Positions 77 to 25,473 of a stretch of DNA of 25,473 bases are shown here, one piece after another. The stretch's first letter is position 1; each line of letters opens with the position of its first letter. The translations under genes and the position numbers were made by a program. The DNA lies in the IMG/VR virus record IMGVR_UViG_3300045912_000837, positions 1-25,473 of that record. One strand, 5' to 3'. Source of the stretch: a virus. The notes under the pieces were generated by a model, which was not told the origin of the DNA, did not search any database, and saw nothing but the letters and a program-made list of their open reading frames with translations.

Positions 77-1729
77 TCACCTTGCCGGTCCGCAGGCGAA
101 TGCCCGATGCCGATCCAACGCCGCGATCAAACCTTCGACGATCGCGTCGGAACTGAACGCTTGCTCAGATGCTGCTCGGACGGCATGGCGGTCCAGATTC
201 TGGGCTCGGGCGACGGCGTCGAGATAGACCGTCAGGGCCAGTTGGTCCGCGTCGGTCTCCACGCACTGGCGGCCGGGAGGCAGCCGATCGACCACGAAAC
301 CGGTCACGCCATCGCGGACGAACGAGGCTCCCGTGGGGACGCCGACTGTGGGGCAGCCGGCCAGCAGAATCTCCTGGAGGGCCAGCGGACCGTGGTCGTC
401 GTCCGCGAGGTAAGCACACGCTCGCGAGCGACGGGCGGCCTCGAACAGCTCTTCCCGGCGGTAGCGACCGTAGTGGATCTGGACGTGCCTAGGGAAGAGT
501 TCCGCCAGGTGCTCGAGCAGTTGCGGACGATGCCCGTTCTTGGCGTAGATCAGCAGGTCGTACTCATCGGGGAGCGGTTCGCCCGGCCATGGATCGATCG
601 GGTAAGGCCAGAGCACGATTGGCGACTGGTTGGCTGGTCCTCGGTGTTTGGCGATCAGGTCGCGATACCACTCGCTGTGGCAGAACATTGCCCGGCAGTT
701 GACGGCGTCGAGCAACGCGCACTCCTCGCGATCGATTCGGGGTGCCCCCGAGTCGGTGTAGAGCATGTTGGGTCCCTGCACAAACGGCTGGCCTTCTGCG
801 TCCCACCACATCGCGTAGCGACGATCGTCCCAGTGCCAGAACCATGGCAATGCACCTTTACTGGCCGGCAGCGACTTGATCGAGAGCCAATCGAGTCCCT
901 CGGCGATTCGCTTTCGAAGTGCTTTCTGCAGCGCGTACATGCCGTTCGTCGGACCGTTGCCGCCGGGCGCGTCGATCGGACCGATCAGTTCCACGGGCAT
1001 CTTGTCATCACGCGGGTTCACATGCGGCGCGAACGAGAAGCGACGGAGCACCGGCAGTTTGTCCCAATCGCGTGACCAGCCAACCGGGATGCTGTTTTTG
1101 CTGGGAAAGGCTCCAAGACCGAGCTCTCGATAACCATTGTCGTCCATGTAGCTGAGGTGGTAACTGCCGTTGTCGTAGCGATAGATGTAGAACGGCGCAG
1201 CGAACTCGCACGGGTCGCACTGCGTGATGCCTGCTGCACCAAGGCGATCGGCCAGCTCCTGATCTTCGCCATTGTTGTGGGGACCGTAACCACGCACGCG
1301 ATAGAAAGCCTCTCGACGAAACGCCCAGCCTCCGTGATACAGACCTCCCGTATCGCATTCCCGCAGCCCGTCATTGTGCTCGACGAGCACCAGTCCTGGA
1401 TGCGACCATTCGGCGCGCTTCAACGCTTCGGCCTGAGTGCGAAACCAATGGGGCAAATAGATGTCGTCGTCATCGGCCACCAGAAAACCTTCGGTGTCCG
1501 GCGACGCCAGAGCCGCACAGGCGTTGCGTTTCTCGCCCAACGAACGAAATCGTCTCGGAATCGACACCAAACGCCAGCCATCACCAGACTGGTTCTCGTA
1601 CTGGCCGGCGTCGTCCAGGATCACCAGTTCCCGCAGTTCGCGCGGGTAGTCCTGACGCAGGAAGCACTCGATCAACTGGCCGAGTCCCGCGGGTCGAAGG
1701 TAGGTGCAGCAAAGTGCGGCAAGCTTCAT
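77..1729 (-). CDS. Two-domain glycosyltransferase (GT-A family 2-like fused to GT-B family 4-like)
   Basis: The 550-aa product has two glycosyltransferase halves. Residues 1 to about 200 look like a family 2 GT-A domain: it starts KLAALCCTYLRP, has the LVILDDAG strand, and carries an acidic nucleotide-sugar/metal motif (VADDDDI, about 85-90) followed by a GEDQEL acceptor/catalytic-type motif near 154-159. Residues from about 235 to 520 resemble a GT-B domain, ending in the donor-site motif DHGPLALQEILLAGCP (about 445-460) and a GVTGFVVD loop. No signal peptide or membrane helix is seen, so it is probably cytoplasmic. It starts 4 bases after the methyltransferase-like gene stops, with only a weak GGTGAT ribosome site, so it probably depends on upstream translation. 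The fold class is clear; sugar and acceptor cannot be told from sequence. Confidence 0.85.
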   Translation of the reverse strand: MKLAALCCTYLRPAGLGQLIECFLRQDYPRELRELVILDDAGQYENQSGDGWRLVSIPRRFRSLGEKRNACAALASPDTEGFLVADDDDIYLPHWFRTQAEALKRAEWSHPGLVLVEHNDGLRECDTGGLYHGGWAFRREAFYRVRGYGPHNNGEDQELADRLGAAGITQCDPCEFAAPFYIYRYDNGSYHLSYMDDNGYRELGLGAFPSKNSIPVGWSRDWDKLPVLRRFSFAPHVNPRDDKMPVELIGPIDAPGGNGPTNGMYALQKALRKRIAEGLDWLSIKSLPASKGALPWFWHWDDRRYAMWWDAEGQPFVQGPNMLYTDSGAPRIDREECALLDAVNCRAMFCHSEWYRDLIAKHRGPANQSPIVLWPYPIDPWPGEPLPDEYDLLIYAKNGHRPQLLEHLAELFPRHVQIHYGRYRREELFEAARRSRACAYLADDDHGPLALQEILLAGCPTVGVPTGASFVRDGVTGFVVDRLPPGRQCVETDADQLALTVYLDAVARAQNLDRHAVRAASEQAFSSDAIVEGLIAALDRHRAFACGPAR

Positions 1730-1733
1730 GGGA

Positions 1734-2240
1734 TCACCACAGGGGACGCAGTGCGTCCTCGATCCAATCGAGCGGATCGGTATCGCTGACGACCGTCGTC
1801 CAGGGAAAGATTTTGGAAAGCGTGAAGCGATACTTGAAGGTGACGAATGCTGGACTGTAGCCGTAGTCCGGATGTTCGGAGTCGTGGCCGATGATCAATC
1901 CGCTGCGATCCTTGAGCCGCAACGCGTCGACGCCGCGCCGTGGCGGTGGCTCGTGGTCAAGTAACACGACCGACCACTGGTGGTCATCCATGGGCGCGTC
2001 GTTGTAGTCGGGTACGAACACAATTTGGTGGCGATGCCTTGTGATCGGCTGGTAGGTGCAAACGCGGGAAATGCGGTCGTACCACTCCGGATCGGTCTCA
2101 ACGGTCCGCACCAGCCGGTCTGTCGCGAATGCAGCCACCAGCGGCGTGCTGAACCAATCGCTCCCGAGTTCCAGCACCGGGCCGGACGTTCAGCGAAGGC
2201 AAGCCAGCAACAGCGGCATGTGGGTCGCAAATGGATTCAT
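1734..2240 (-). pseudogene. Class I SAM methyltransferase-like gene interrupted by in-frame TGA at codon 17
   Basis: An ATG at 2240 with a strong AAGGAGGAG ribosome site forms an ATGA overlap with the radical SAM gene. It opens a frame beginning MNPFATHMPLLLACLR, then meets TGA at 2192-2190. The same frame continues at once with TSGPVLELGSDWFSTP, a Rossmann motif-I-like start, followed by TVETDPEWYDRI, SVVLLDHEPPPRR, IIGHDSEHPDYGYSP and FKYRF, and ends at 1734. The match to SAM-dependent methyltransferase-type proteins is by recalled pattern. The glycine-rich motif has Asp where Gly is more usual (GSD). A GTG at 2177 could restart a 147-aa protein, but it has no ribosome site and lacks the N-terminus. 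It is therefore either a recent nonsense mutation, a sequencing error, or a recoded/read-through stop. Confidence 0.7.
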
Positions 2241-2995
2241 GTTGACTCCTCCTTCTTCTTGCGCTGCTCAATGCGTTTGACCGCAGCTTGCCAGGTCGGT
2301 GACATCAACGAGCCGTGCATGACCTGGCTCTTGGCGATGTGGTGGCTGGTGATTCCAAGCTCCCGCCCGCAGACATCGCAAAGTGAACAGGTCTGCTGGT
2401 GGGCGAACTCGGGATCGAACAGATCCTTGAGCTGTCGCGTGCGAACTTTGAGGTCGAGCACGCTGTCGATGGCCCCACCGATCGAGCAGATCGCGTAGCC
2501 GCCCGCATCGACGGAGATCCCGCAACCGAGCGCCGCATGGTTGTGGCAGGGGCGATGGTTGATGACACCGAAATCTTTGGGTGCCAGGAAGAAGTCCGCT
2601 TGCGGCAACACCATGCAGCCGTCGGCTTTGATCGTCTCCTCGCAGACCTTGGCTTTCCCCTCGGCTCGAATCCTCGCCAGTTCGTCCTTTGCGGCGTCAC
2701 GATAGCCGTTCGACCAAACCTCAACCCGACCGGGGCTCAGTTCGTTGGCGATCTCGATGAACTCGAACAGGTCACGATGCAGAGTTGGTTCGCCGCCGAG
2801 GACCACGATTTTTGGGAACCAGTTCAGTTCACGGGCCTGGCGATTGAACTCGCGGGCGTCATCGAGCGTCATGTCGGGTGTGGTAGGTGGCAGGAAACAA
2901 AGGCGATTGCAATTCGGGCAAGCCAAATCACAGCGGTAGGTGATGTGCCACTCCGCTTCATTGCTCTTTGGCGTGTAGTCGGGAATCGTGCTCAT
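2237..2995 (-). CDS. Radical SAM protein with C-terminal SPASM-like cysteine cluster
   Basis: The 252-aa product has the radical SAM CX3CX2C cluster motif (YRCDLACPNC, Cys22/26/29), which binds a 4Fe-4S cluster and S-adenosylmethionine, then the GGEP SAM-contact motif (67-70) and an EVWSNGY strand near 92-98. More cysteines follow at 150, 158, 170, 203, 206 and 209, in a spacing reminiscent of SPASM/Twitch auxiliary cluster domains. The ATG at 2995 overlaps the upstream stop as ATGA and is preceded by GAGGAG; the longer open frame upstream lies inside the glycosyltransferase gene. Its place between a glycosyltransferase and a methyltransferase suggests modification of a sugar, peptide or virion protein. 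No precursor peptide was recognised nearby, so the substrate is unknown. Confidence 0.88.
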   Translation of the reverse strand: MSTIPDYTPKSNEAEWHITYRCDLACPNCNRLCFLPPTTPDMTLDDAREFNRQARELNWFPKIVVLGGEPTLHRDLFEFIEIANELSPGRVEVWSNGYRDAAKDELARIRAEGKAKVCEETIKADGCMVLPQADFFLAPKDFGVINHRPCHNHAALGCGISVDAGGYAICSIGGAIDSVLDLKVRTRQLKDLFDPEFAHQQTCSLCDVCGRELGITSHHIAKSQVMHGSLMSPTWQAAVKRIEQRKKKEEST

Positions 2996-4098
2996 GCGAA
3001 CTCCTCGACGCCCAGCGTCCCTGCATAGGTATGGGCGTGCGGGATGCCATCGACATCGCTGACGTACTGGCCCACGGATCGGAACAGTCGCTTCCACGCC
3101 TCCCAGATCACGTTGGGATTGGCCAGCTCGTTCACGAGTCGATCGTGCGCCGCGTGGATGATCCGCTGCCTGAGATCCTCGTCGTGAGCGAGCATCGCCG
3201 CGTAATGCGCCAGTTCGCAATCGTCGCTGCCAAGAAAACCGGTCACGCCGTGCTCGATCATTTCTCGCCAGCCCCAGTCGTTCTGAGCGACGATCGGAAC
3301 GCCGGCTGCCATCGCTTCGAGTCCCGCTCTTGGCCAGTTCTCACGGGCACCACCGTTGATCGGCAACAGGCAGTGGAGCGTCGAAAGGAATTGCTGGACC
3401 GAGATCGCCATCGGCTTGAGGCAATCGGCGAACACGGGCGATGCGCCCAGCTTTTCGTGAGTTCGGCTGTCCATACCAAGCATCAACGCCCGTTTGTTGG
3501 CGTACTGGATGGCCGAATAGATCGGCCAGGTGTTGCTGGACCACTTGTCGGTGTCAGGGCGCGCCATGCGTCCGACGACGTACACGTCGCCACGAGGATG
3601 TGAACGCGGCGCAAACTCGAACTCGTTCAAGTCGAATGCGCCACGGATCAGGTGGCCGCATTCCGGCGAGTAGCCCAGGGATTCAAGCTGCGGCTCCAGT
3701 TGCTGGCGTTGAAACTCCGACTGGAACACGAACGCATCGGCTGGTCCATGCTCCGCGAACAGTTGCTTTTCGTGATCGAACAAAAACGTCATGCAGTTGG
3801 CCCAGACCAGCGGGCAGCCCAGTTCTCGAAACCGCGGCGCATGGGCAATGAACTCGCGGTTGCAGAAACTCACCACAGGCGACCCTGCCAGATTCGGCAC
3901 GCTGGCCAGAGCATCGGGACGAACCTCGTGAGTCGTTGCTCCGATGGCCGCGACGCGTTCGCGCCATTTCTGGTCGCAGTGCCATGTAGGGATCAGATTG
4001 ACATCCACACCGTAGTGACACCACAACTTGATCGTGTGCCACGCCTCGGTGTTAGCTCCACCTATCTCGCCCGGATAACCGACTAAGAACACTCGCAT
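2992..4098 (-). CDS. GT-B fold glycosyltransferase (family 4-like)
   Basis: The 368-aa cytoplasmic protein begins MRVFLVGYPGEIGGANTEAW, the glycine-rich N-terminal loop of GT-B enzymes. It has the Rossmann strand DVYVVGRMARPDTDKW (about 171-186) and the donor-binding region RAGLEAMAAGVPIVAQ (257-272), followed by WREMIEHGVTGFL (277-289), typical of family 4 retaining glycosyltransferases. It starts with ATG after AAGGAG, 21 bases downstream of the Ser-rich virion gene, and overlaps the radical SAM start by four bases, so all belong to one transcription unit. The donor sugar and acceptor cannot be read from sequence. Inference: it may glycosylate the adjacent Ser-rich virion protein. Confidence 0.88.
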   Translation of the reverse strand: MRVFLVGYPGEIGGANTEAWHTIKLWCHYGVDVNLIPTWHCDQKWRERVAAIGATTHEVRPDALASVPNLAGSPVVSFCNREFIAHAPRFRELGCPLVWANCMTFLFDHEKQLFAEHGPADAFVFQSEFQRQQLEPQLESLGYSPECGHLIRGAFDLNEFEFAPRSHPRGDVYVVGRMARPDTDKWSSNTWPIYSAIQYANKRALMLGMDSRTHEKLGASPVFADCLKPMAISVQQFLSTLHCLLPINGGARENWPRAGLEAMAAGVPIVAQNDWGWREMIEHGVTGFLGSDDCELAHYAAMLAHDEDLRQRIIHAAHDRLVNELANPNVIWEAWKRLFRSVGQYVSDVDGIPHAHTYAGTLGVEEFA

Positions 4099-4119
4099 GG
4101 GACGTTAACTCCTTCTTGT

Positions 4120-5955
4120 CTAAATCTCGGTGACTTCGCTGCTGGGAACTGGAACGAGACTGCTGGAACCTGATCCACCAGAGCTGCTCGAGGGCGTGCC
4201 GCTGGAACTGCTCGCTCCGCTGGAGGACGGCGAGCTGCTGCTGGGTCCGCTGGATGACGAGCCGCTACCGCTCGGTCCGCTGGACGACGTCGAACCGCTA
4301 CTTGACGAGGTGGCCGATGACGAGGAGCCGGACGACGAGCCACTGGATGACCAAGAGATGCTGGAACTCCACGACGACGATCCGCTGGACGATCCACTCG
4401 AAGAACCACTTGAGGAACTTGAGCAGTTGTCGCAGCAACAGCAGCCAGCTTGGTGGCTGAAGGCCCACGGTCCCTCGTATCGAGTGAGCGTCGAACCCGA
4501 CAGGCAAATTGAAACGGCCCGCGTGTAGACGTTCAGCTTGCCGCTTTCGCACCGCACATCGGTTTCGTAGATCGCGACGCAGCTTTGTGGACCGCTGCTT
4601 GATGGACCGGAGGAACTGCCCGACGAACTGCTGCCCGAAGAGGAGGACGAGCCGGACGACGAACCTGACGAGCTCGAGGAACCGCTACTGGATGACGAAC
4701 CAGAGGAACTTCCGCTCGACGACGACGAAGGGGCACTGGAACTGGATGAGCCACTGGAACTGGACGAACCTGAAGAGGAACCGCTGGAACTGGATGATCC
4801 GGACGAAGACGACGAAGCGGGCGGCTCGCAGCATCCTTCGCCGAGCGTCAAAACTTCCCATTTGCAGCTATCGGCATAATGCTTGGCGACGCCGTAAGTA
4901 CCTGTGGGAACCGAGTCGCCGGATTCGCAGTTGCACCCGCTGGTGCCACTCGCGGGCTGGCAAATGTCCGCACAGACGATGCCCACCGGGTCGTGAACCG
5001 TGAAGAACAGCGAGACCGGGCACCACTTGCCGGACTGATAGAGCACGAGCTGCGCGGAAGCAGATCCACACCGAGCCAGTGGACTAAGCAGCTTGAACCG
5101 CCAGTGGTCTTCGTACGGCGCGAGCGCTTGCCAGCGACACTCGTCCTCATTCCAGATGCACCAGACCCAATCGCCACAGCCGAACTTGGCGGGCACGAGC
5201 CCCGTCGCCTTGTGGAGCGAAATGACGGCGGCCCGTTCCGCGGGTGGGTAGCCCACCGCGTGCCAGACGGTTTCCGTTGGCTCGCTATTGTCCGCTGCGT
5301 ATGTGATGCTCGAGCCGAAATAGAATACGGGCTGACAGCCGGTCATCTTCATCCAGCCATCTGGGTCTGGAGTGGCCGAGGCCTGCCACGTTCCCGAGAG
5401 CTGGAAGATGCCAAACCGTGGGCGCTCGCTCAATTGCACCACAGCCCACTTCACACCAAGGCCCGACTCCTTCCACAGGATTCGAGTCAGGCCGTTGGGT
5501 GAGCTCCGCAAATGGGCCGTCTCATTTGTCGCGATCTCGGCATAGGCGTCCGATTCGCGGATGACGTTGATACGGACGGGCGTGACGCCCGACACGATTC
5601 CGCGACCAATGCCGCCGCTTGTCAGCGGATCGAGCAGGATGGCAAATCGTTCGCGCTTGCTCGGGTCGGTTGCTTTGACACCATCGAGGTTGACCCGGTT
5701 CTTGAACTCCTGCAGGTTGTCCGTTGGGCTGACGATCGGGCTTCGCAGCGCCAGGATGTGGTAGCGATTCTGATCGGTTCCGGTTTGATTTCGAACCTTG
5801 ATGATGCCGGTCTGCCGAACCTCAAGCCCAGCTTCCTGTTCGATACTATGGCGGCGCGAACGCTCCTCGCGAACGGCATCGATGAAAGCGTTGTAGGCCT
5901 CGGCCGGAATCTCCATCCGCTGGCCCGCCTGCACTTTTTTCAAGGCGTCGCCCAT
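4120..5955 (-). CDS. Ser/Gly-repeat virion protein, probable distal tail/fibre component
   Basis: The 611-aa product has three parts. Residues 1-150 are a polar, mixed alpha/beta region starting with a short amphipathic segment. Residues 150-380 are beta-rich and contain many cysteines and tryptophans (for example FGCGDWVWCIW). The C-terminus is dominated by two Ser/Gly blocks (about 381-456 and 512-599, units such as SSSSGSSSG), split by a Cys-rich 55-residue island with four consecutive cysteines (CCCC). It starts three bases after the upstream tail gene, with AGGAA as ribosome site. As the last gene of the tail block, it sits where fibre or receptor-binding proteins usually lie. It has no signal peptide. 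The Ser blocks are likely flexible linkers and plausible O-glycosylation targets, given the next genes. Function is inferred from position. Confidence 0.7.
   Translation of the reverse strand: MGDALKKVQAGQRMEIPAEAYNAFIDAVREERSRRHSIEQEAGLEVRQTGIIKVRNQTGTDQNRYHILALRSPIVSPTDNLQEFKNRVNLDGVKATDPSKRERFAILLDPLTSGGIGRGIVSGVTPVRINVIRESDAYAEIATNETAHLRSSPNGLTRILWKESGLGVKWAVVQLSERPRFGIFQLSGTWQASATPDPDGWMKMTGCQPVFYFGSSITYAADNSEPTETVWHAVGYPPAERAAVISLHKATGLVPAKFGCGDWVWCIWNEDECRWQALAPYEDHWRFKLLSPLARCGSASAQLVLYQSGKWCPVSLFFTVHDPVGIVCADICQPASGTSGCNCESGDSVPTGTYGVAKHYADSCKWEVLTLGEGCCEPPASSSSSGSSSSSGSSSGSSSSSGSSSSSAPSSSSSGSSSGSSSSSGSSSSSGSSSGSSSSSGSSSSGSSSGPSSSGPQSCVAIYETDVRCESGKLNVYTRAVSICLSGSTLTRYEGPWAFSHQAGCCCCDNCSSSSSGSSSGSSSGSSSWSSSISWSSSGSSSGSSSSATSSSSGSTSSSGPSGSGSSSSGPSSSSPSSSGASSSSGTPSSSSGGSGSSSLVPVPSSEVTEI
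4159..4422 (-). repeat. C-terminal Ser/Gly codon-repeat block
   Basis: This stretch encodes about 88 residues of Ser with interspersed Gly, Thr, Pro and Trp (residues 512-599 of the 611-aa protein). All six serine codons appear mixed rather than one repeated trinucleotide. That suggests selection for amino-acid composition rather than recent slippage. Confidence 0.85.
4588..4815 (-). repeat. Internal Ser/Gly codon-repeat block
   Basis: This stretch encodes about 76 residues of nearly pure Ser/Gly (residues 381-456 of the 611-aa protein), with SSSGSSSSSG-type units. It is separated from the second block by a Cys-rich island. Confidence 0.85.
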
Positions 5956-5958
5956 CGG

Positions 5959-6750
5959 TCAGGTTCCTATTCCAAGTCCCGCGAAATTTCCCTCGTCGTA
6001 GACCTTCTCCACGTAGGCGGCGATCGGCTGCTTGACCAACACGTGCTGGTCTTCGGCGTCGGCGTATCGGACCCACAGATACTCCCATCCCCGTTTGGCG
6101 ATGCCGGTGATCGGGCCAATCGATAGGCCCGTGACGTTGGGACTGGCGGCAAAGCGGAAGGTGATCTCCCAGTCTTCTTCACCACGCTGCGAGCCCGATG
6201 CGCCCAGGAATAGCACTTCGCCTGGAGCGAATCCCTTGAACGCGCTGGCGTTGACTTTGCCGGTGAGCAAGAAGAGTGTCGCCTTGTAGGCACCGGTTAC
6301 CAGCGCGATCGGGATGTAGTGCGTTTCCGTGAAGTTGTAGATCGGGACCGTAATATCGGTCCCTTCGACGCTGTCGGTGGTGACTCCAATGGCTCCTTGG
6401 AAGTTCGGAGCGGTCTTGCCCGGCGGTGCGTAGCTGCCGATCGTCTGCAGCGACTGCGTGACATGCGTCGTTCCGCCGCCTGTGTCGAACGAGAACGATG
6501 AGTCGCCGGTATCCTTGGGCTCCTTCTTGCCGTAGCGAACCGACACCTCCCACACGCCGCCGCCCTGATGCGTGATGTGGTAGGACTGGAACACCAGCCC
6601 GGCGTAGAGCGCGGGAATCGTAGACTCCACCAGCGCGCGCACGGCTCCGTCATCTTCGGTTCCCTGGACCACGTAGATGAGATCGACCGAAGGGCTCTCG
6701 ATTCCCTCCGTCGCTTCCCGGCTGTCGTAGCGTTCGATGATTGTGGCCAT
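5959..6750 (-). CDS. Distal tail / tail-tip structural protein (hypothetical)
   Basis: The 263-aa product is soluble and rich in predicted beta strands (for example VWEVSVRYG and WEITFRFAASP), with no signal peptide or membrane helix. It starts at ATG 12 bases after the tape measure gene ends, with an AAGAAG-type ribosome site, and ends three bases before the Ser-rich gene. Genes directly after the tape measure in siphovirus modules usually encode the distal tail protein or baseplate hub, so that role is inferred from position. I do not recognise a specific family. The central segment, with AFKGFAPGEVLFLG and VTGLSIGPI, looks like a compact fold rather than a fibre. Confidence 0.65.
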   Translation of the reverse strand: MATIIERYDSREATEGIESPSVDLIYVVQGTEDDGAVRALVESTIPALYAGLVFQSYHITHQGGGVWEVSVRYGKKEPKDTGDSSFSFDTGGGTTHVTQSLQTIGSYAPPGKTAPNFQGAIGVTTDSVEGTDITVPIYNFTETHYIPIALVTGAYKATLFLLTGKVNASAFKGFAPGEVLFLGASGSQRGEEDWEITFRFAASPNVTGLSIGPITGIAKRGWEYLWVRYADAEDQHVLVKQPIAAYVEKVYDEGNFAGLGIGT

Positions 6751-6762: not shown

Positions 6763-8751
6763 TTACGCGAACACCAGTCCGCCATGTTGAGCCTCCTGCA
6801 CGAGCCGCTTGGTGTTGGCAGCAACCTGCTCGCTGGCCTTCGCCGTCCGTTCGTTAAGCGAGTCGATACCGAGATTGGCGGCCGCGAGCGGATTGAACGT
6901 TCCCACGACATCGACTTTGCGCTGCGTCGTGTCGATCAGTTCATCGAGGCCCGACAAGTCCAATTCGGCTTGCTTGACGCGATCTGGTCCCGTGCGCGAT
7001 TCGGCCTCGGTGCGTTTGCTGGCCGCCTCAGCCAATGCGTCTTCCCACTCCTGGCGCGCGGCCGCGAGGGCGTCTTCCGATTCCTTGAGGTCGGCATCGA
7101 ATTGCCGTTGGCGGTCGGCGTGGGCTCGCTGACGATCCTGCTCCAGAACATCGAGCGTGCCGGTCCGCTGCCCTTCGATCTCAGATTGCCGGCGTTGTCG
7201 ACCGGTTTCGATGCCGGCGAGCTGCTGATTGGTTGCCCGCTGTCGCGATTGCTGTTCGCGCTGAAAGTCTTCCTGCAGCACGGCCAGTGTGCCTTCGACG
7301 TCAACCGAGTCGTCGAGCATTCCCATCAGATGCACGATGCCCTTGGCGATGATGTTCTGCGCGCCTTTCCAGGCGGAAACGGCTCCACTGGCAAACAAGG
7401 TCCAGGCTGTCGACATGGCGGCGACCGTTTCGGTCCAGAACGACTGCAAGCCTGCCCAGGCGTTGGTCATGATCCGCGACAGACCGAACACCGCTTCGGT
7501 CCAGATCGAGAGGAAGACCTCTTTGAATCCGATCCATTTCTCCTGCAGCCAGTTGATGCCCTTTTGCCATTCCATCTTGAGCGTCAGCCACAGAATCTTG
7601 GCGGCCAGGCCGATGTCACCGGCGGCCAGTGCGTCCGAGATCCCCTGGAACGCAGCGAGCGCATCGTCCTTCAGATCCATGAACACGCCGGCGAGCCAAG
7701 TCAATGCTTGCTGGCCGACGCCGGAAACGTAGAGCAGATACCCCGCCAGCGCGACGACGCCTGCGATCACCAGCCCGATGGGAGAAAGAATGGCGGCGAT
7801 GATCGAACCCAATGTGGCAATCGCCGCTCCGATGCCGGTAGCGACCGTGGCGATGGAACCCAGCGCCGCACCGATTCCTGAAACAGCGGTGCCGAGCGCG
7901 ATCAGGGCGACTCCGGCAGCAGTGGCTGCGGCAGCGATCTTGAAGACCCACACCACCAGCTCTTTGTTCTGCTTGATCCAGTCGGTGACGGTCACCACGA
8001 TTCGGGTCATCGCTTGAGCCGCTTCGATCAGCAGCGGAGCGAGCGCCGAGCCGATTGTAAACGCGATGCTCTTGAGAACTTTCCAGAGATCGTCGAGTGT
8101 GTCGCCGAAGACTTCCGCCGCCTTGGCGTCCTCGGTCGAAATGGTCAGCCCCAACTGCCTGGCCTGTTCCTGAAGTTCCTCGATTCCTTGCGTACCGTTG
8201 GCAATGAGCGGAAGCAGCCTCGTTCCCGACTTGCCGAACACTTCCATCGCCAGCGCGGCTTTGAGTGTCGGATTTTGAATCTGTGAGAGCCGGTCCGCGA
8301 TGAGCTTGAACTGCCCCTCAGGCGAAAGGCTCGCCAGGTCACTTACCGAGATCCCCAGTCGCCCGAACGATTCGGCGGCGGTTTCCGATCCGCCAGCAGC
8401 CTCGACGACCTGTTTCTGCATGCGGCGCAGCGCGGCTTCGAGTGTCTCCAGGTCCGCACCGGATTGATCGGCTGCGTAACCAAGCTCGGAAAGCGACTCG
8501 ACGGAGACGCCCGTTCGAGCGCTCATCTTGGCCAGGGTGTCGCCCATACTGGCGAAGACATTGGTCGTAGCGAGCAGTGGTGTGACGACGCCGGCTCCCA
8601 GTCCCGCGAGCTTCGTCCCAATGGAGGTGATCCCCGCGCCGAACGCTTTCAGCTTCTTCTCGGCGGCCTGCAGACCTTTCACGAGGCGGCTGTCTTTCGT
8701 GTACAGCTCGACATAGGCCGCGCCGGCTCGAATCCCCTGGGACAATCCCAT
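6763..8751 (-). CDS. Phage tail tape measure protein
   Basis: The 662-aa protein has classic tape measure architecture. It has an amphipathic N-terminal helical region (AAYVELYTKDSRLVKGLQ), then a conserved-looking segment around 65-200 (MGDTLAKMSARTGVSVESLS, ALRRMQKQVVEAAGG, FGKSGTRLLPLIANG) typical of TIGR01760-like tape measures. A long hydrophobic stretch (about 264-343) consists of several potential membrane segments, and a highly charged coiled coil (about 480-600) is rich in Gln, Arg and Glu. Tape measures set tail length and may enter the cell envelope at infection. At roughly 0.15 nm per residue it would give a tail near 100 nm (inference from the family rule). Its place after the G/T chaperones and tube protein fits a siphovirus. 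Confidence 0.93.
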   Translation of the reverse strand: MGLSQGIRAGAAYVELYTKDSRLVKGLQAAEKKLKAFGAGITSIGTKLAGLGAGVVTPLLATTNVFASMGDTLAKMSARTGVSVESLSELGYAADQSGADLETLEAALRRMQKQVVEAAGGSETAAESFGRLGISVSDLASLSPEGQFKLIADRLSQIQNPTLKAALAMEVFGKSGTRLLPLIANGTQGIEELQEQARQLGLTISTEDAKAAEVFGDTLDDLWKVLKSIAFTIGSALAPLLIEAAQAMTRIVVTVTDWIKQNKELVVWVFKIAAAATAAGVALIALGTAVSGIGAALGSIATVATGIGAAIATLGSIIAAILSPIGLVIAGVVALAGYLLYVSGVGQQALTWLAGVFMDLKDDALAAFQGISDALAAGDIGLAAKILWLTLKMEWQKGINWLQEKWIGFKEVFLSIWTEAVFGLSRIMTNAWAGLQSFWTETVAAMSTAWTLFASGAVSAWKGAQNIIAKGIVHLMGMLDDSVDVEGTLAVLQEDFQREQQSRQRATNQQLAGIETGRQRRQSEIEGQRTGTLDVLEQDRQRAHADRQRQFDADLKESEDALAAARQEWEDALAEAASKRTEAESRTGPDRVKQAELDLSGLDELIDTTQRKVDVVGTFNPLAAANLGIDSLNERTAKASEQVAANTKRLVQEAQHGGLVFA

Positions 8752-10401: not shown

Positions 10402-10896
10402 TTACCTCCAAACTCGATAGGTGAGCGAGAGCACGCTGGTGAACTGGCGCAACTCATCGAGATGATCGGGAGCGAACACGGGTTCGTTGTTGAGGGCCAT
10501 CAACCTCGCGTCGGGTAAGGCTGTGAGCGGAACGGTGCGAAGCCGCTCAGCGATTTCCGCGACGAGCAACGTCAAGCCGTCGAGCGTCGCCTGGTCCATC
10601 GGACTGCGCTGCTGGATGCCAACGTCGATGCCGCAGTCGTACGAGGTCAGGGCTCGCGAGAGTTGCTTCTCCGAGATCGAACGGGGCACGACGCTAACGT
10701 GCAATTCGTCCATTTCTTTCAGGTCAAAGCGCGGTTGGTAGTACCGCACGGCGACGACGCTTTGGCTATAGACGCCGAGATTGATCTCGTACGTCACCGC
10801 TTCCGCGACCTGAAGTAGCAGCGGATCGACCACGGGCGGCAGCGGTGGGGCCAACGTCGCATTGAAACCCCTTCCCAGGATTCCGATCAGGCTCAT
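10402..10896 (-). CDS. Tail terminator / neck protein (hypothetical)
   Basis: The 164-aa product begins MSLIGILGRGFNATLAPPLP and contains alternating strands (for example AVTYEINLGVYSQSVVAVRYYQPRF, split here into YEINLGVY and VVAVRYYQPRF) and VVPRSISEKQLSRALTSYDC, ending in VLSLTYRVWR. The ATG at 10896 overlaps the upstream stop as ATGA and has a strong GGGAGGT site; the longer open frame upstream lies in the neighbouring gene. Size, a beta-strand at the C-terminus, and position before the gp10-like and tube genes fit a tail terminator, which caps the tube and joins it to the head. The call rests mostly on position. Confidence 0.6.
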   Translation of the reverse strand: MSLIGILGRGFNATLAPPLPPVVDPLLLQVAEAVTYEINLGVYSQSVVAVRYYQPRFDLKEMDELHVSVVPRSISEKQLSRALTSYDCGIDVGIQQRSPMDQATLDGLTLLVAEIAERLRTVPLTALPDARLMALNNEPVFAPDHLDELRQFTSVLSLTYRVWR

Positions 10897-12188
10897 GGCC
10901 CACCTCCCACGACGGCTCGGCCCACGAAGTTCGAGATGGACGTGATGCCCGCGCCGGTCTCCGTAAACAGTTCCTGCCGCAAAAGCTCGACGCCAACGCC
11001 CGGACCACCGCTCCCTTTGCGAGTCAGGACCATCGCCCAGGGTGTCACCGTGGTGTCGATGTAGCGGTCCGCTTCCAGCAGCTCGGCCAGCGACGCCACA
11101 CGTTCGAGAGAGTGCTTCGCCTCGTCGAACGTTCCGCCGCCAACGTTGATCTCGGCTTTGGCCGTCGGATCCGCCGCATCCGCTCGAATCAACGCACGGA
11201 GCCAAGCGGCCAGGCTGGTGATGCCATCGAGTACGGATTCGATCTGCGTGATGCTGCTGTTGTCCGGTGCGGTGTACGCGCTGCTCGCCAGTCGCGAAGA
11301 AATCGTCGCATCGAGGTTGTCGAGATTCGCGGCTCGGACCGGGGTCAATCGCGATTCGAGTTCATCCACGAAGGCGATGATCGTCGTCTGGTTGGCCAGC
11401 GTTCCGAGTCCCGACTGAATTTCCAGCGTGGCGTCGGTCGCCAGAGCCGAGGCCGTGATCGCGTTGGCCTGAAACTTGGTGGCTCCGATGGCTCCGTCCA
11501 CGAGCGTCACGCCATTGGTCACGCTCGCGACCGTCGTGACCTGAAAGACGGTTCCCGTAAGGTCGCCCGAGATGTCGGCGGTGAAGACGCCGCCAGTTCC
11601 ATCGAGGCACTTTTCCAGTTCGTCGGCGGCGAGTGAATCTCCGCTGATCGCCAGGACGTCGGAGGAAACGAGCCCGCCTGGTGTCAGCGGAATCGCGGCT
11701 CCGGTCGAGGTGAGATTCGTGGCTGCCGTGAGAGTGCGAGTTGCGTTGGTCCAGACGTTCGCCGCAGTGAGCGTACTGCGGGAACTGATCGTGGCATCCA
11801 GGTTGTCAAGTTTGGCGGCTCGGACAGCGGTGTAGTCCACAGCGGACGCACGACTCGTCACAGCAGCGTCCAGGCGGTTCAAGCCGAGGTTGGCATCAAA
11901 CGGATCCCAGGGGACGATTTCGAGATTGAAGTCGACAGGATCTGCTCCAGTCGCTTCGACATGTACGGCGAGTTCCCCCAACGCACTGCGGTCGGACGTG
12001 TTGGCCGCCCAGGCATACCAGCCGCTGCCGATTTCGGCGATGGTTCCTGATGCAGACGCGAATGCGGCACCGTTCTTCGAGATGGTCACAATTGGCATCG
12101 CACCAGCCAGGCCTGTGATGTGGTCGCCAGATTGCACAAGGAAGAAAGTCACTGGGTAGACGGTCGAATTCTGTTGGCGTTGTCGCAT
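10893..12188 (-). CDS. Repeat-containing virion structural protein (431 aa)
   Basis: Residues 1-95 form a beta domain (YPVTFFLVQSGDHITGLAGA, ISKNGAAFASASGTIAEIGS, GWYAWA) of a type common at the front of phage fibre or baseplate proteins. A helical repeat of the type LDxLDAxxSSR follows, seen at about 103-113, 127-137 and 289-299. The second and third copies share AAxLDNLDATISSR at the protein level but differ at many codon third positions, so the duplication is old. The C-terminus (from about 340) is mixed. No signal peptide is seen. It starts with ATG three bases after the 65-aa gene and overlaps the tail terminator gene. It is probably a fibre, neck or decoration protein; the exact role is unknown. 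Confidence 0.65.
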   Translation of the reverse strand: MRQRQQNSTVYPVTFFLVQSGDHITGLAGAMPIVTISKNGAAFASASGTIAEIGSGWYAWAANTSDRSALGELAVHVEATGADPVDFNLEIVPWDPFDANLGLNRLDAAVTSRASAVDYTAVRAAKLDNLDATISSRSTLTAANVWTNATRTLTAATNLTSTGAAIPLTPGGLVSSDVLAISGDSLAADELEKCLDGTGGVFTADISGDLTGTVFQVTTVASVTNGVTLVDGAIGATKFQANAITASALATDATLEIQSGLGTLANQTTIIAFVDELESRLTPVRAANLDNLDATISSRLASSAYTAPDNSSITQIESVLDGITSLAAWLRALIRADAADPTAKAEINVGGGTFDEAKHSLERVASLAELLEADRYIDTTVTPWAMVLTRKGSGGPGVGVELLRQELFTETGAGITSISNFVGRAVVGGGP

Positions 12189-12190
12189 GG

Positions 12191-12388
12191 TTAATGATCT
12201 CCCTGCACACGGGAGCGGGAGATACCGCCGGACACTGTGGCGACGATGGGCACCTCGACGAGCGCAGCGCCGCTATTGGTGCCGCCTTCGGTCAGGATGT
12301 CGGGCAGCGTGACCAGCGCCTCGGCCGGCAACTCATCCATGAGCCCGGCCCAGTCGCCGACGTCCATCAAGATGTCATCGAGGGCCAT
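12191..12388 (-). CDS. Small acidic hypothetical phage protein
   Basis: This 65-aa product (MALDDILMDVGDWAGLMDEL) is acidic and has a helical front half and a beta-type back half (VEVPIVATVSGGISRSRV). It lies 8 bases after the 712-aa structural gene and three bases before the 431-aa gene, so it is probably translated as part of the same unit. Its ribosome site is weak. I do not recognise a family. The longer open frame reaching back to 12538 overlaps the 712-aa gene and is rejected as its start. Confidence 0.55.
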   Translation of the reverse strand: MALDDILMDVGDWAGLMDELPAEALVTLPDILTEGGTNSGAALVEVPIVATVSGGISRSRVQGDH

Positions 12389-12396
12389 ATTGGTGC

Positions 12397-14535
12397 TCAC
12401 TTCTGGGTCAAGATCGCGCGAACGCGGATGTTGTCGGCCAGCGACGCTGGTGTGTATCGGACGTAAGTCGTCTCGTTGGTCTTGTCGGCGTTGATCCAAG
12501 CCGACCACGCGGCACCGCCGTTGGTTGAACGCTCCCACGTGCCGGTAGGCGTGTCGGTGTTGTCGTCCAGGAGCAGTGTCCCGAACACGGCGTCGTAGAG
12601 GCGAATCCGTAGCGCGGGCACGCTGCCGCCGAATGCCACCGCTTGTCGCCAGGCGAACCGCTTGCTCGCGGTCGAACTTTGACCCACGCTCGGCTGATAA
12701 TGCGAGTCCGTGCTCGTGTCGTCGTAAACGAGCGTGACCGCATAGACGCGGGCTGGAATGCAGGTCAGACCGACCGTGCGAAACTCGAGCGCGAACTGAA
12801 TCGCCGTTCCGGGCGAGACGGCCGACAGGTCGCCACTATCGTCGAGCACCGTCCACTGGCCGCTGTTGTCAGCGATTCCGGTTGTGCGATACAGGATTCG
12901 CAGCGGTTCGGTCGCGAGTCCAAGATTCTGGGCCGTCGCGCCGCCCAGCACCTGTGCGTGGGAAACCAGCACTCGCCGCAGACGGTCCGCCGCCGGCGTT
13001 TCCATCTTGGGTAGCACGATGCGTTGGTCGCTTGATGCGGCGTACTCCCAATCGCCTGCGATGGGGAAGGCATAGAGGATGCCGGTCGCAGTGGCCGACA
13101 CTCGCGCCGTGAACGCCATACCCCCTTCGACCCGAGTCGAGAGCTGCCCTTCGAGAATGTTGGGATGCGGGGTGCTGGCGCTGTCGGCATTGGCTTGATC
13201 GATTTGCCGAGTGCTAACAAACAGGATGCGGTCGAACTGCCCGCCATCGGTGCGATACTGCGTCAGGTACGAACGAAAGCTCGTGGCCCCCGTGCTGATG
13301 ACCAGAAACCTGTCGATAGAGTCGAGGTACTCGATCTGTGCCAGCGCGCCGGTGGCGGCGAACGTGTTCGTACCGCCAGGCGGAACTTCCGTTGCCGCAT
13401 CGGCTTGCCACGGGCCGCCATTGGTGATGGTTGCCATGGGCAGTGTGCGATAGATACGGGTAGTGGTAACCAGGTAGCCGCAGCCCTGGCCGCTGCCTGG
13501 TCCGTGATTGGCGACGGCGTAGCGGCCGTTATTGGTCTGCGAACCCGTGCCCGTGACCGCTTGCGCGGCCGACGCCAACACGAATGCGTTGGTCGCCTTG
13601 CCGGCGGTGAGTGTCAGCGCCGCTCGTAGGTTGTATTTGAACAGCTTGATCGACGTCGTACCGTCGACCACCCAGCAATGATGTGTCGCCTTGCTCGCCG
13701 CTGGTTCGAGCATCGTGCCTGCAGCCACGGTGTTCGTAACCGTCCCGGCATCAGCCAGCCAATAAACGGCGCGGATGTTGTCCACCGTCGTCGCGGCTGG
13801 GATCGCCGTGCCCGCGGGGATGAAGATCTCGGGTCGCAGACCCTTGGCAACGAAAAGGCCGCCGTTGGTTGCAGTGGCGTTGGTCGTCGCGGCCACGACG
13901 CGCAGATCCTCAATCACATACGCCGTGCCGCCGGCCAGCGTGCCAGGCGAAGAGTCCAGCGTCAGCGACGTGTTCGAGCCAATCGCCGTGATCTCGTACC
14001 AGGTCGAGATCTGCATGGGATCGGTCGAGCCGAATCCAATGCGGTTGCCGACGCATGCGCCGTCGGTTTGCCACGTTGTACCGGTGCCCGTGACCGTGGT
14101 TCCGCTGACCGCCACGGTGCCCGCATTGTGCTTGTCGTAAGTGACGCGCATCGACCGCAGCGTGTGGTTGGTGGCGCTAGGGAAAGTGAGTATGATTGCG
14201 CCTTCCCAGGAAAACTGCTGCGTGGCCCGGTCGAACTGATACAGTCCGATGCGGCGCGTGGCGGCAGCCGCCGCGTTGTCTCCGTAGAACACCCAGTCCT
14301 TGGTGCTGGACCAGCGAATCACGTGCAGCCAATTGGGCGGAATCGACAGCGACTGCTCGAACGGACGAGCTACGGCGACCGGAGAGGGGCCGATCCATTT
14401 ACCTGTGTTTCCCGCGTCGTTGCGACGGACCATCAGCGAACCCAGACCCAGCTGGTTCTGATCATAGGGTCCGCCAGGAACTGGATAGGTTCCGAGCGAT
14501 TGCCAGTTGCTGAGTGTGACGGCCTGCATTCCCAC
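12397..14535 (-). CDS. Large beta-rich virion protein (712 aa), unknown family
   Basis: The 712-aa product is Gly/Thr/Ala-rich with many short strands and no signal peptide or membrane helix. The front (to about 100) has LYQFDRATQQFSWEGAIILT, a strand-rich pattern. A compact domain near 130-210 (TVAVSGTTVTGTGTTWQTDG, then ISTWYEITAIGSNTSLTLDS) looks like a beta-sandwich or Ig-like insert. The middle has propeller-like repeats of strand and turn (for example LAQIEYLDSIDRFLVISTGA). The end is again strand-rich (WERSTNGGAAWSAW). The start is either GTG at 14535, spaced well from GGGGA, or ATG at 14529. Placement between the head-tail connector and the tail terminator is unusual for so large a protein. 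It is probably a particle surface or fibre protein. Confidence 0.65.
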   Translation of the reverse strand: MGMQAVTLSNWQSLGTYPVPGGPYDQNQLGLGSLMVRRNDAGNTGKWIGPSPVAVARPFEQSLSIPPNWLHVIRWSSTKDWVFYGDNAAAAATRRIGLYQFDRATQQFSWEGAIILTFPSATNHTLRSMRVTYDKHNAGTVAVSGTTVTGTGTTWQTDGACVGNRIGFGSTDPMQISTWYEITAIGSNTSLTLDSSPGTLAGGTAYVIEDLRVVAATTNATATNGGLFVAKGLRPEIFIPAGTAIPAATTVDNIRAVYWLADAGTVTNTVAAGTMLEPAASKATHHCWVVDGTTSIKLFKYNLRAALTLTAGKATNAFVLASAAQAVTGTGSQTNNGRYAVANHGPGSGQGCGYLVTTTRIYRTLPMATITNGGPWQADAATEVPPGGTNTFAATGALAQIEYLDSIDRFLVISTGATSFRSYLTQYRTDGGQFDRILFVSTRQIDQANADSASTPHPNILEGQLSTRVEGGMAFTARVSATATGILYAFPIAGDWEYAASSDQRIVLPKMETPAADRLRRVLVSHAQVLGGATAQNLGLATEPLRILYRTTGIADNSGQWTVLDDSGDLSAVSPGTAIQFALEFRTVGLTCIPARVYAVTLVYDDTSTDSHYQPSVGQSSTASKRFAWRQAVAFGGSVPALRIRLYDAVFGTLLLDDNTDTPTGTWERSTNGGAAWSAWINADKTNETTYVRYTPASLADNIRVRAILTQK

Positions 14536-20932: not shown

Positions 20933-21127
20933 CTAGCGATCCATCGACTTCTTCACCTGAATCGCGGCTTCGTAGGTGACGATACGGCGTCCACAATGAC
21001 GGCATCGTTTGCGACGTCGAATGCGTCCGTCACGCAGCGGCTCGGTGTTCGTCGTGTAGAAGTGACAACAGCCGCAATGCGGACAACGGATGCCGTTCGA
21101 GTTTGGTTGCTGCGTTGCGGTACTCAT
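20933..21127 (-). CDS. NrdR-like zinc ribbon protein
   Basis: This 64-aa product has two CXXC knuckles (CPHC and CRHC) spaced about 25 residues apart, with DGRIRRRKRCRHCGRRIVTY between and after. That is the pattern of the zinc ribbon at the front of the NrdR repressor (CPxC ... RRRRxCxxCxxRFTTYE), but the ATP-cone domain is missing. It therefore cannot be NrdR itself. A zinc-dependent nucleic-acid-binding role is likely. The start ATG overlaps the terminase stop (ATGA), so the two are translationally coupled. It might help packaging or regulate transcription. Confidence 0.65.
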   Translation of the reverse strand: MSTATQQPNSNGIRCPHCGCCHFYTTNTEPLRDGRIRRRKRCRHCGRRIVTYEAAIQVKKSMDR

Positions 21128-23391
21128 CGTCGGTTCCTCCGCTGCAGCTCGGCGAAGCTGACACGCTCCCGACGCTTCTGAGAGCTCGCCTCCATGCCAA
21201 GCAGCGCCGTACCTTGGAGCGACGCGGCGACGGCAGATCCCACCAGACAGTCGAACCAGTGGTTGTCATCCCGCTCGGGTCGCATCTTCCATTCGTCTAC
21301 TGTCCGACCACGCCCCTCTGTCTTCACCCGATACTCGCTGGTGAGGTGTTCGGCGATCAGTCGATGCGGCTCCGGGGACTCTCCGAACAGCGACAGGCAA
21401 CCACGGTCGCCCATCGGCACGGCGAGTCGCGCGTGCACGAATGACTTCCAGTAGTTGGTGTCGTAGACGATATGGCGAACGGCGCGCTTGCCATGCACGT
21501 TCGGGATCCGCCAGTTGTGCCCAACGCGGTCCCCAGGTCGCCGTTTGTATTCCGAGAATGGCTGGCTTGAAGCGCCGACGAATCGCCCGTGACTGGGCAT
21601 CACGATTCCCGCGTGGGCCGATTGGCGACAGAACTGGTAAATCACATCGGTCGATGAGCCCCAGTTGGCATCGATCAAGCAGCGATCGATTCGCAGCATC
21701 GCGCCGTCATCTCTTTTCCAATCTCGCTGCAGCAGGTTGCCAGTGAGCGATTCGAGACCCGCGAAGATGGCTCCCTCGATCCCGTTACTCTTGGTGACCG
21801 TGGAAAGCGTCACGCGGGCATCGCGCAGTGTGAAGTAGTGTCGATGCTGGTCCGGCCAGGTCCCATAGTCGATCACATAACCCGTGAAATCTTCCTCCCA
21901 GGCTGCCACCAGATAGAAAAGGAGGTTGGCCTGCACGTCGATGAACATCGAGAGATGATTGCAGCCGACCGGCACTTCGCCGCGCTGCATGCGGTTGGTC
22001 TTGGCCGCGATCTGATCGGCGGTCAGCTCATCATCGGTCGCCGCGATTTCCGGCAGCGGTTCGTTTTGGTACTCCGCGAAGAACGCAGCTTCGTCTTGAA
22101 GCTTCAGGTTCATCGCGTGCTGAATGGCTGACAACTCGTCGTGATTGAATCGCTCTGGCCACGCGATGACGCATCCCTCGTCCATCGCTTCCTGATTGGC
22201 GCGGTAGAACTCGGTGGCTGCCTCACCTGCGTTTCCTTCCCGCATGCTCTCGGCACGCAGCTCGGCGTATCGTTTCCAGAGCGTCTCGTTGGTCGGGAAC
22301 GAGTAGACCATTTTGGTGCGTTCGCCATTCCATTCCGGGTGCTTGTCGCGGGAGAGAATGTTGTCGGCCATGTCGCTGGGCCGGATGACGGTGCAAGGCA
22401 TGATGCCAGAAATCTTCTTGCCGGGACCAGCAAGTCCAAGCACGGCACCCGCCAGGATGCTCTCCCGCGTCGCACACTGGGAAAGCGACCGGGCCGACTC
22501 ATCCGTCTGCGGATCGTCGAGTACGACCAGCGAAGGTCGAACCGTCTTGCCGTCCGCTCGTTTGTACTTCATTCCGCGAATGCGCCCCGTGATGCCGGCA
22601 ACCTTGATGATCGCTCCGCTGGCCACACTGCCAGGCATTGTCGGAAGCACCACTTCCTTGGCGGTCCATCCGATGTGGGTCCGCTGGCCTTTGTAAAGCT
22701 GCCCGTTGCAGCGATTGGCGATTCCATCGAGTGCCTGAATCGGGAAGACGACCTCCGGGTAGTCGGCCAAGAGCAGTTCGTTGCCATCGAGTTCCATCTT
22801 GATCGACTCGAGCATGTCCATCGCGTGCCCCTCATCGCTGCCGATGAGGCACACGAACTCGCGATGGCCATTGAGCACCGCCCAGATGCAGGCGCACTCG
22901 CAGATGGTCGTTTTGCCCGACCCGCGCGGCATGGCCATCGAGAACAGGCCACCTCGCATCACCGCCTGCTCGATCCTCCGGATGACCTTCAGATGGTCGG
23001 CCGACCAAGGTAGGTGAAACGTGAGTGGAAAGTACGACTCACAGAAGTACTGAAAGTCAGACTCCGCACGTGCCTTGCGATCCGGGTCGGCAACGACAGG
23101 GAGGTCGCCAATGTCGCGACCCGCGATCGCCAACGCAACGTTGCGAGCACGGGCCCGGTCCTTCATGCGTTCGTAGGTGTCGCCTTGGGACTCGCGCGGT
23201 GGTGCATGCCGCGTTTGCACGAGCCACGCCACGTAACGCAGCAAGTCGACGTGCCGACCATCGCCAATCCGATTTCCAGCGCGGGTGCGATGTCGGTGCA
23301 GCTGCCGCTCGCTGAGCACCTCGCCCAGAGGTGTCGAGTTCAGCAGGCGGCATAGCTCGCTGGGGCGAAGTCGTCTTGGATCAGTCGCCAC
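21124..23391 (-). CDS. Phage terminase large subunit with extra N-terminal DNA-binding-like domain
   Basis: The 755-aa product is the DNA-packaging motor. Walker A is MPRGSGKTT (154-162) and Walker B SLVVLDDP (287-294), in an ATPase domain of GpA-like type. The nuclease domain has three acidic positions: Asp485 (FIDVQ), Asp574 (LIDANWG) and Asp714 (NHWFDCLVGS). The first 70 residues form an added domain (LRPSELCRLLNSTPLGEVLS, VDLLRYVAWLVQ) that echoes the small upstream protein. The start is GTG at 23391, with AAGGAG at 7-nt spacing, overlapping the small gene's end; the longer frame to 23565 runs through that gene. It cuts and pumps DNA into the prohead through the portal. Confidence 0.95.
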   Translation of the reverse strand: MATDPRRLRPSELCRLLNSTPLGEVLSERQLHRHRTRAGNRIGDGRHVDLLRYVAWLVQTRHAPPRESQGDTYERMKDRARARNVALAIAGRDIGDLPVVADPDRKARAESDFQYFCESYFPLTFHLPWSADHLKVIRRIEQAVMRGGLFSMAMPRGSGKTTICECACIWAVLNGHREFVCLIGSDEGHAMDMLESIKMELDGNELLLADYPEVVFPIQALDGIANRCNGQLYKGQRTHIGWTAKEVVLPTMPGSVASGAIIKVAGITGRIRGMKYKRADGKTVRPSLVVLDDPQTDESARSLSQCATRESILAGAVLGLAGPGKKISGIMPCTVIRPSDMADNILSRDKHPEWNGERTKMVYSFPTNETLWKRYAELRAESMREGNAGEAATEFYRANQEAMDEGCVIAWPERFNHDELSAIQHAMNLKLQDEAAFFAEYQNEPLPEIAATDDELTADQIAAKTNRMQRGEVPVGCNHLSMFIDVQANLLFYLVAAWEEDFTGYVIDYGTWPDQHRHYFTLRDARVTLSTVTKSNGIEGAIFAGLESLTGNLLQRDWKRDDGAMLRIDRCLIDANWGSSTDVIYQFCRQSAHAGIVMPSHGRFVGASSQPFSEYKRRPGDRVGHNWRIPNVHGKRAVRHIVYDTNYWKSFVHARLAVPMGDRGCLSLFGESPEPHRLIAEHLTSEYRVKTEGRGRTVDEWKMRPERDDNHWFDCLVGSAVAASLQGTALLGMEASSQKRRERVSFAELQRRNRR

Positions 23392-23587
23392 GGCCCAGCT
23401 CCTTCGCGATCCACGCGGCGTAGTGCACAAGGTTGAGCGTGCCGTCTGCATTCCGCGGCGCTCCGGCCTCCAGGTCCTCAGCAATCTGCTCGACCGGAAT
23501 GCGGATCTTGGCGGCCGCCGAGAGCAGCTTGGCCGCCTGCTCTGGCGTGAGCCGGTTCGGATCAACGGGCGTCGGTTCGGTGGTCAT
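23381..23587 (-). CDS. Small terminase-like DNA-recognition protein (68 aa)
   Basis: The product (MTTEPTPVDPNRLTPEQAAK) has LLSAAAKIRIPVEQIAEDLE and a final LNLVHYAAWIAKELGRGD. The helical layout, with a closing Gly-x-LxLxxYAAWL-like helix, resembles the DNA-binding region of small terminase subunits (Nu1-like), but it is very short. The same helix pattern occurs at the front of the large terminase (VDLLRYVAWLVQTRH), so the two may be paralogous. The ATG at 23587 has GGGAGG and is chosen over the ORF start at 23728, which lies in the leader. It is the first gene of the minus-strand run and overlaps the large terminase start by 11 bases. Confidence 0.55.
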   Translation of the reverse strand: MTTEPTPVDPNRLTPEQAAKLLSAAAKIRIPVEQIAEDLEAGAPRNADGTLNLVHYAAWIAKELGRGD

Positions 23588-23797: not shown

Positions 23798-23867
23798 CAG
23801 ATTCCTGCGAACATTCCGCCAACCGCGCTTGATGTCGTTTCAAACGCATGGCTCATGTGTGTCATCG
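23798..23867 (+). repeat. Leader repeat copy 1 (70 bp, operator-like core)
   Basis: This stretch aligns without gaps to 25393-25462, at about 54 of 70 positions. It begins with CAGATTCCTG in both copies. The 19-nt core (23844-23862) is identical in both and contains ACGCATG, GCT, CATGTGT, a near-palindrome with one mismatch. It ends 41 bases before the plus-strand start at 23908. It may be an operator or an upstream promoter element. Confidence 0.7.
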
Positions 23868-23907
23868 GAAGCGAATTCCCCACAACACCCAACACGGAGA
23901 AAAGACG

Positions 23908-24240: not shown

Positions 24241-24264
24241 CCCCCAACACCAAGGAACCAGACC

Positions 24265-24519: not shown

Positions 24520-24552
24520 AGCCGAAACGCGAGCGACACGGGTCGCTGCGTC

Positions 24553-24573
24553 GCGGCGGGTGGTTCCCGCCGC
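24553..24573 (+). repeat. Perfect 8-bp hairpin between plus-strand genes
   Basis: GCGGCGGG (24553-24560) pairs with CCCGCCGC (24566-24573) around a 5-nt loop. No T-tract follows, so it is not a normal intrinsic terminator. It may protect mRNA ends or tune expression of the HARE-HTH gene that starts 49 bases later. Confidence 0.6.
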
Positions 24574-24621
24574 CTGAGATTGGCAGCCAAACCACTCAAC
24601 CCAATTCCGAGGAGACGAACG

Positions 24622-25041: not shown

Positions 25042-25055
25042 GAGGAACACCAACC

Positions 25056-25462: not shown

Positions 25463-25473
25463 CAACGACGATT

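Follow-up and report, generated by a model that had tools for sequence, protein, structure and literature searches.

Virion glycosylation is, to our knowledge, known from only a few phages. Serine-rich acceptors encoded beside their own glycosyltransferases (GTs) are a familiar arrangement in bacteria, as in the serine-rich repeat (SRR) glycoproteins and the Sdr adhesins (GspB/Fap1, SdgA/SdgB), while GtrABC serotype conversion relies on an integral-membrane glucosyltransferase and a flippase. Among phages, the mycobacteriophages encode GTs that glycosylate their own virions (Freeman et al. 2023, cited in PMC12619734). Here we describe a gene module that closes the tail operon in virus record IMGVR_UViG_3300045912_000837, a planctomycete tailed-phage contig of 25,473 bases, called the window below. 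In this module a protein with a long Ser/Gly C-terminus is followed directly by genes for a GT-B enzyme, a radical S-adenosylmethionine (SAM) enzyme, a methyltransferase-like protein and a GT fusion. We consider it probable, on sequence evidence, that the four genes belong to a phage-encoded virion glycosylation cassette, whose enzymes would coat the Ser/Gly tail with a variable glycan.

Two marks of virion glycosylation are present at this locus, namely GT genes linked to structural genes and a candidate virion-protein acceptor alongside them. Phage-encoded GTs are shared with the mycobacteriophage system. The glycans there are reported at the C-termini of capsid and tail tube proteins; here a separate protein of the tail operon has a Ser/Gly tract proposed as a dedicated acceptor, accompanied by an exchangeable tailoring slot that includes a radical SAM enzyme, in phages of another host phylum. 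The likeness to SRR and Sdr systems lies in a Ser-rich, low-complexity acceptor beside GT4-type and other GTs, including a weak SdgA match, but the window module is not secreted and sits in a phage tail operon; its GTs match no NCBIfam model for GtfA or GtfB, and no accessory Sec gene (SecA2/SecY2) occurs among the tail-operon matches. Unlike the GtrABC proteins, the GTs, the radical SAM enzyme and the methyltransferase contain no segment above KD19 1.6, and neither transmembrane segments nor signal peptides were found in the enzymes or the acceptor. Homologues of the Ser/Gly protein, the radical SAM enzyme, the GT-B and the GT fusion were absent from 50,697 phage records, and a literature search found no description of the module or of planctomycete phage glycosylation. 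Virion glycosylation by phage GTs is known, and the combination described here was found in none of the annotated phage records and papers searched.

The late operon lies on the minus strand and runs through the terminase large subunit, portal, protease/major head protein, major tail protein, tape measure, a 263-aa protein and the Ser/Gly protein to the four enzyme genes (Table 1). The Ser/Gly gene is separated from the GT-B gene by 21 nt, the GT-B and radical SAM genes overlap in an ATGA, the radical SAM stop codon overlaps the ATG of the ancestral methyltransferase gene, and 4 nt lie between the latter and the GT fusion. An earlier note on this DNA had gene order, direction and spacing right, this being one operon of tightly packed or overlapping genes; its GT-B enzyme is borne out by a Glycos_transf_1 match (E 1.7e-10), and its GT-A/GT-B fusion by a Glycos_transf_2 match (E 1.7e-5) with a sub-threshold Glycos_transf_1 part. 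The two Ser/Gly blocks that it had seen are there, but amount to about 186 residues rather than 165, and its methyltransferase-like gene belongs to that family but would not be a working gene here. Because of an in-frame TGA at 2190-2192, after 16 codons, and a motif I changed from GSG to GSD in a gene that is intact in 11 relatives, the methyltransferase is probably dead in the window phage, or else misassembled.

The Ser/Gly tract is neither a product of chance nor a DNA repeat artefact. Its serines are encoded by 83 TCN and 45 AGY codons, and because both codon families are used it is the Ser residue itself, not a DNA repeat, that is maintained. Tandem Repeats Finder (TRF) reported a single short array of 2.9 copies, and the 1.49 Mb of related loci contain just two further Ser/Gly tracts at a distance from these genes.

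To follow the coupling between tract and enzymes, every stop-to-stop frame of 104 distinct contigs was scanned with a profile for each of the window proteins. Some of these contigs are near-copies, so that counts are not all independent. Among GT-B homologues that reach 55% identity and have 1.5 kb of sequence on their upstream side, 35 of 38 have a tract within 3.3 kb upstream. In one of the three exceptions, L090, the tract lies slightly further upstream, behind inserted genes; the other two, L125 and L027, were rejected as counter-examples, being GT-B fragments joined to unrelated DNA. Every intact close GT-B homologue therefore has a Ser/Gly tract upstream (36/36), so that the virion-glycan reading withstands the refutation named in the earlier note, enzymes that occur equally often without the Ser-rich gene, and the order of tail protein with Ser tract, GT-B, slot and GT fusion is the same across phage contigs and Planctomycetota genomes.

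A second comparison gathered loci from the tail protein, without using the enzymes. A glyco-enzyme gene lies downstream in all 15 loci with a tract, versus one of nine without (Fisher p 1.2e-5, a value that overstates independence because the Ser-tract trait changes few times and offers one well-supported independent pair). Glyco-enzymes of three non-homologous sets come after Ser/Gly tracts within this tail-protein family: besides the set in the window, the tract precedes, in two other lineages, a fusion of GT25 and sulfotransferase in L070 and L079 (with the start of a GT25 in L063), and a Mannosyl_trans3 gene in L058 and L061, with an FkbM methyltransferase next in L061. In the latter pair (L058:10480-12420, L061:10672-11706) the tract is carried by a separate small protein with RYLARF...PLYALGCP repeats, encoded after the tail-domain protein. 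What lies downstream of tract-less relatives is a DNA adenine methylase, a kelch-like protein or an unknown one. No other argument for the tract as acceptor is as strong as this recurrence of function without homology after the tracts. A 'Stealth-like' reading of L065 was not supported by Pfam. In L043 and L044, where a homologue of the tail domain lies upstream of a distant GT-B, an acidic SSSEEESSSEE sequence replaces Ser/Gly.

The same comparison bears on whether the enzymes are cargo genes (morons) that inserted by happenstance where the tail operon ends, with common descent as their only link to the Ser tract. The small number of independent trait changes and the exchange of the cassette by recombination, described below, both agree with such an origin; we nevertheless judge it improbable, because glyco-enzymes recur beside tracts in three unrelated sets, while the genes downstream of tract-less family members are unrelated to them.

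Several observations weigh against a virion glycosylation cassette. GT-B homologues below 55% identity mostly have no tract (14/16, with a tract in 2/16), so the GT-B family also serves other acceptors; the Ser-tract trait changes only four times on the tree of the N-terminal domain, with one well-supported independent pair; L073 has a weak GT2-like gene and no Ser tract; and the only pointers to a structural role of the acceptor are its position and a weak fold resemblance. The interpretation in the earlier note is supported in part. Its main point, a dedicated virion-glycan pathway, has the backing of about 40 related loci, with the 36/36 coupling and the three non-homologous enzyme sets; the methyltransferase step is probably inactive in the window phage, the radical SAM step is not universal, and most distant GTs have no tract.

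The structural role itself is plausible. A profile search of the tail domain against the PDB gave no match; a fold search there found a weak likeness to the base of the phi29 head fibre gp8.5 and to T1-type capsid chains (E 0.013 or worse), and a fold search of BFVD gave significant, low-coverage matches, mostly to uncharacterised phage proteins, some of them named as fibre-like or tropism-determinant-like. Because of these fold matches the Ser/Gly protein may well be a virion component, placed at the tail tip or as a decoration; its position after the tape measure and the fold resemblance agree with its having been called a virion protein, a role that stays putative.

The enzymes might instead remodel a host surface glycan during infection or lysogeny, serving receptor masking or superinfection exclusion, with the tract an unmodified flexible linker. 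GTs beside tail genes have been interpreted so in pelagimyophages (PMC7029224), some of our loci sit in host genomes, and two families found in the slot, pyruvyltransferase and LicD, are typical of cell-surface polysaccharides. The module, however, keeps its place within the late tail operon, its enzymes are free of the membrane segments of GtrABC serotype converters, and enzymes without homology to one another turn up repeatedly behind Ser tracts but not behind homologues that lack the tract. With soluble enzymes so strictly coupled to the tract (36/36), host-surface modification becomes the less likely reading, and we regard it as improbable.

On the glycosylation reading, the glycan itself would vary between phages. 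The position between the GT-B and GT fusion genes is a variable tailoring slot (Table 1), whose occupants other than the radical SAM enzyme and the methyltransferase are, by name, glycan-building or glycan-decorating families. The earlier note was right that a radical SAM step exists; it is one of several alternative slot occupants, however, not a universal component. Loci L117 and L087 share a 263-aa protein at 94% and a tail domain at 89% identity and differ in their cassettes, whereas the cassette of L117 is nearest to that of L153 (GT-B 87%, radical SAM 93%, GT-A 85%), from which its tail domain has diverged to 47% identity. Because L117 has its tail in common with one locus and its cassette with another, the glycan cassette is, as judged from these alignments, exchanged between phages, and the Ser tract lies close to the edge of this cassette.

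The radical SAM enzyme (PF04055, E 2.2e-8) had first been described as SPASM-like. The SPASM motif comprises seven cysteines, CX9-15GX4C...CX2CX5CX3C...C, that bind two clusters (PMC6231123). This assignment is rejected: the seven-cysteine motif is absent, and the window enzyme and its close homologues have no cysteine beyond C209 that could bind a second auxiliary cluster. C22, C26 and C29 of the core CxxxCxxC, together with C158, C170 and C206xxC209, are invariant in 10 homologues that are 52-93% identical to the window copy, a set that fits the twitch class, with the core and a single predicted auxiliary cluster. The best Foldseek matches of a model with a predicted local distance difference test score (pLDDT) of 64 are BtrN and AbmM (probability 0.98-0.99 but E 0.036-0.11, not significant). 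The window enzyme resembles these best structural neighbours in the size of BtrN, in the core CxxxCxxC and in the cysteine set of one auxiliary cluster, and departs from them in that sequence likeness is confined to the core (AbmM E 0.058, BtrN absent from the matches listed) and the fold match is not significant even at its best (E 0.036). BtrN is a dehydrogenase of an aminocyclitol (PMC9012708). In eight of nine aligned homologues the radical SAM protein is 82-93% identical to the window copy, and in most of these the neighbouring GT-B is 65-87% identical; at the cut-off used, the family has two matches in 392 planctomycete genomes, both inside the module.

Many SPASM-type enzymes, and also the twitch enzyme SkfB, act on peptides (PMC9012708, PMC6231123), and peptide maturases are among the weak profile matches of the window enzyme. 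It could thus, with the methyltransferase, modify peptide, for instance Ser side chains or the Cys-containing mini-domain between the Ser/Gly blocks, in the manner of SPASM/twitch maturases of ribosomally synthesised and post-translationally modified peptides (RiPPs), glycosylation being a separate matter. We hold this to be rather unlikely. A protein of 252 aa leaves no room for an N-terminal peptide-binding RiPP recognition element (RRE) domain, there are no second-cluster cysteines after C209, and the Cys mini-domain is conserved equally in relatives with and without the radical SAM gene; the slot is shared with glycan-tailoring enzymes, L034 has a radical SAM domain joined to a GT in one protein, and the nearest folds, neither significant, include an enzyme with an aminocyclitol substrate. 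Peptide modification would in any case affect a single step, and the other enzymes could still glycosylate. Since the slot occupants besides it and the methyltransferase belong by name to families that build or decorate glycans, the radical SAM enzyme most likely edits a sugar rather than a peptide.

From the anatomy, co-occurrence, slot diversity and cassette exchange we infer a scheme for glycan attachment, enzyme order, radical SAM substrate and biological role. To judge by its position, composition and coupling, the Ser/Gly C-terminus would be an unfolded, hydroxyl-rich acceptor on a virion protein. The GT4-like GT-B, encoded beside the acceptor and present in all close loci, may place the first sugar or sugars on Ser, and the GT2 and GT-B fusion would lengthen the chain. 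The slot genes would then tailor the sugar, a role suggested by slot equivalence and assigned in the window lineage to the twitch radical SAM enzyme, originally together with the methyltransferase. Modification would be cytoplasmic, as the lack of transmembrane segments and signal peptides supports, and would precede or accompany tail assembly. Recombination that swaps the cassette while the tail stays may switch the glycan type between phages, much like serotype switching, and the glycan could, speculatively, serve in shielding or receptor contact. It is possible, yet short of probable, that the radical SAM enzyme edits a virion-displayed sugar by radical chemistry, for example by dehydrogenating or epimerising it, and that this, combined with switching of a phage 'glycotype' by cassette swap beside the Ser/Gly tract, forms a virion analogue of bacterial O-antigen variation.

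If the scheme holds, this phage family carries a dedicated disordered glycan scaffold on its particles and an exchangeable decoration module that includes radical chemistry. For studies of the role of virion glycans, the module supplies a well-defined acceptor, the enzymes that go with it and naturally swapped pairs (L117 versus L087). Its radical SAM enzyme is also a small member of the twitch class whose sequence is under strong constraint and whose substrate is probably a sugar.

Table 1. Features of the window, and occupants of the tailoring slot in the window and in related loci (L numbers)
Feature	Position	Strand	Description
GT-A (GT2-like) and GT-B fusion	77..1729	minus	550 aa; DxD and ED motifs invariant; proposed chain extension
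Class I SAM methyltransferase-like gene	1734..2240	minus	broken; ATG at 2240
Twitch-type radical SAM enzyme	2237..2995	minus	252 aa; CDLACPNC core; proposed sugar tailoring
GT-B fold glycosyltransferase, GT4-like	2992..4098	minus	E-x7-E motif (ENWPRAGLE) invariant; proposed first sugar transfer
Ser/Gly tail-operon structural protein	4120..5955	minus	611 aa; last structural-operon gene; residues 1-373 conserved N-terminal region, then Ser/Gly C-terminus; proposed glycan acceptor
Ser/Gly block 2	4147..4440	minus	residues 506-603; 61 S and 15 G of 98
Cys-containing mini-domain	4441..4572	minus	44 residues between the blocks; CVAIYETDVRCE...GCCCCDNC
Ser/Gly block 1	4573..4836	minus	residues 374-461; 60 S and 14 G of 88
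263-aa tail protein	5959..6750	minus	conserved; directly upstream of Ser/Gly protein
Tape measure protein	6763..8751	minus	sets the module at the tail operon end
Two large genes	10893-14535	minus	712 and 431 aa
Terminase large subunit	21124-23565	minus	
Small early-type genes	23848-25235	plus	including 24580-25041
73-nt direct repeat	23798-23870 and 25393-25465		77% identical
Slot: radical SAM and methyltransferase			window, L055, L004, L117, L120, L127, L128, L153
Slot: radical SAM only			L012, L115/L116, L124-L126
Slot: methyltransferase only			L005, L082/L083, L121, L122
Slot: polysaccharide pyruvyl transferase PF04230			L015, L114; by likeness L017, L123
Slot: LicD PF04991			L134; by likeness L062
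Slot: another GT			L090 (GT64-family domain); by likeness L087-L094
Slot: GT2-radical SAM fusion	L034:7161-8552		GT2/Glyco_transf_7C-like domain and radical SAM domain
Slot: nothing			L056, L119

Close relatives of the window sit in metagenome-assembled genomes (MAGs) of Planctomycetota, with the GT fusion 91% identical in a Pirellulales MAG, and because of these relatives the host is most likely a planctomycete, as had been assumed from the start. A complete module also lies beside head and tail genes on a 6.96-Mb planctomycete chromosome contig, and L132, a match binned as Bacteroidales, is probably mis-binned.

The first of the two large genes between the head and tail genes, that of 712 aa, has weak tail-fibre matches and is 95% identical in L003 and unmatched in the other relatives. 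The small early-type genes on the plus strand, one of which resembles a HARE-HTH-type DNA-binding domain, probably explain a jump in AT skew at 24-25 kb. The direct repeat has one copy near the start of this cluster and the other at the contig end. A 20-mer form of its shared 18-mer, with two more 5' bases, was found in none of the fetched loci. The 18-mer itself, CGCATGGCTCATGTGTGT, occurs twice, in exact copies, in the repeat pair against an expectation of 0.04, and the repeat is possibly a duplicated promoter or leader.

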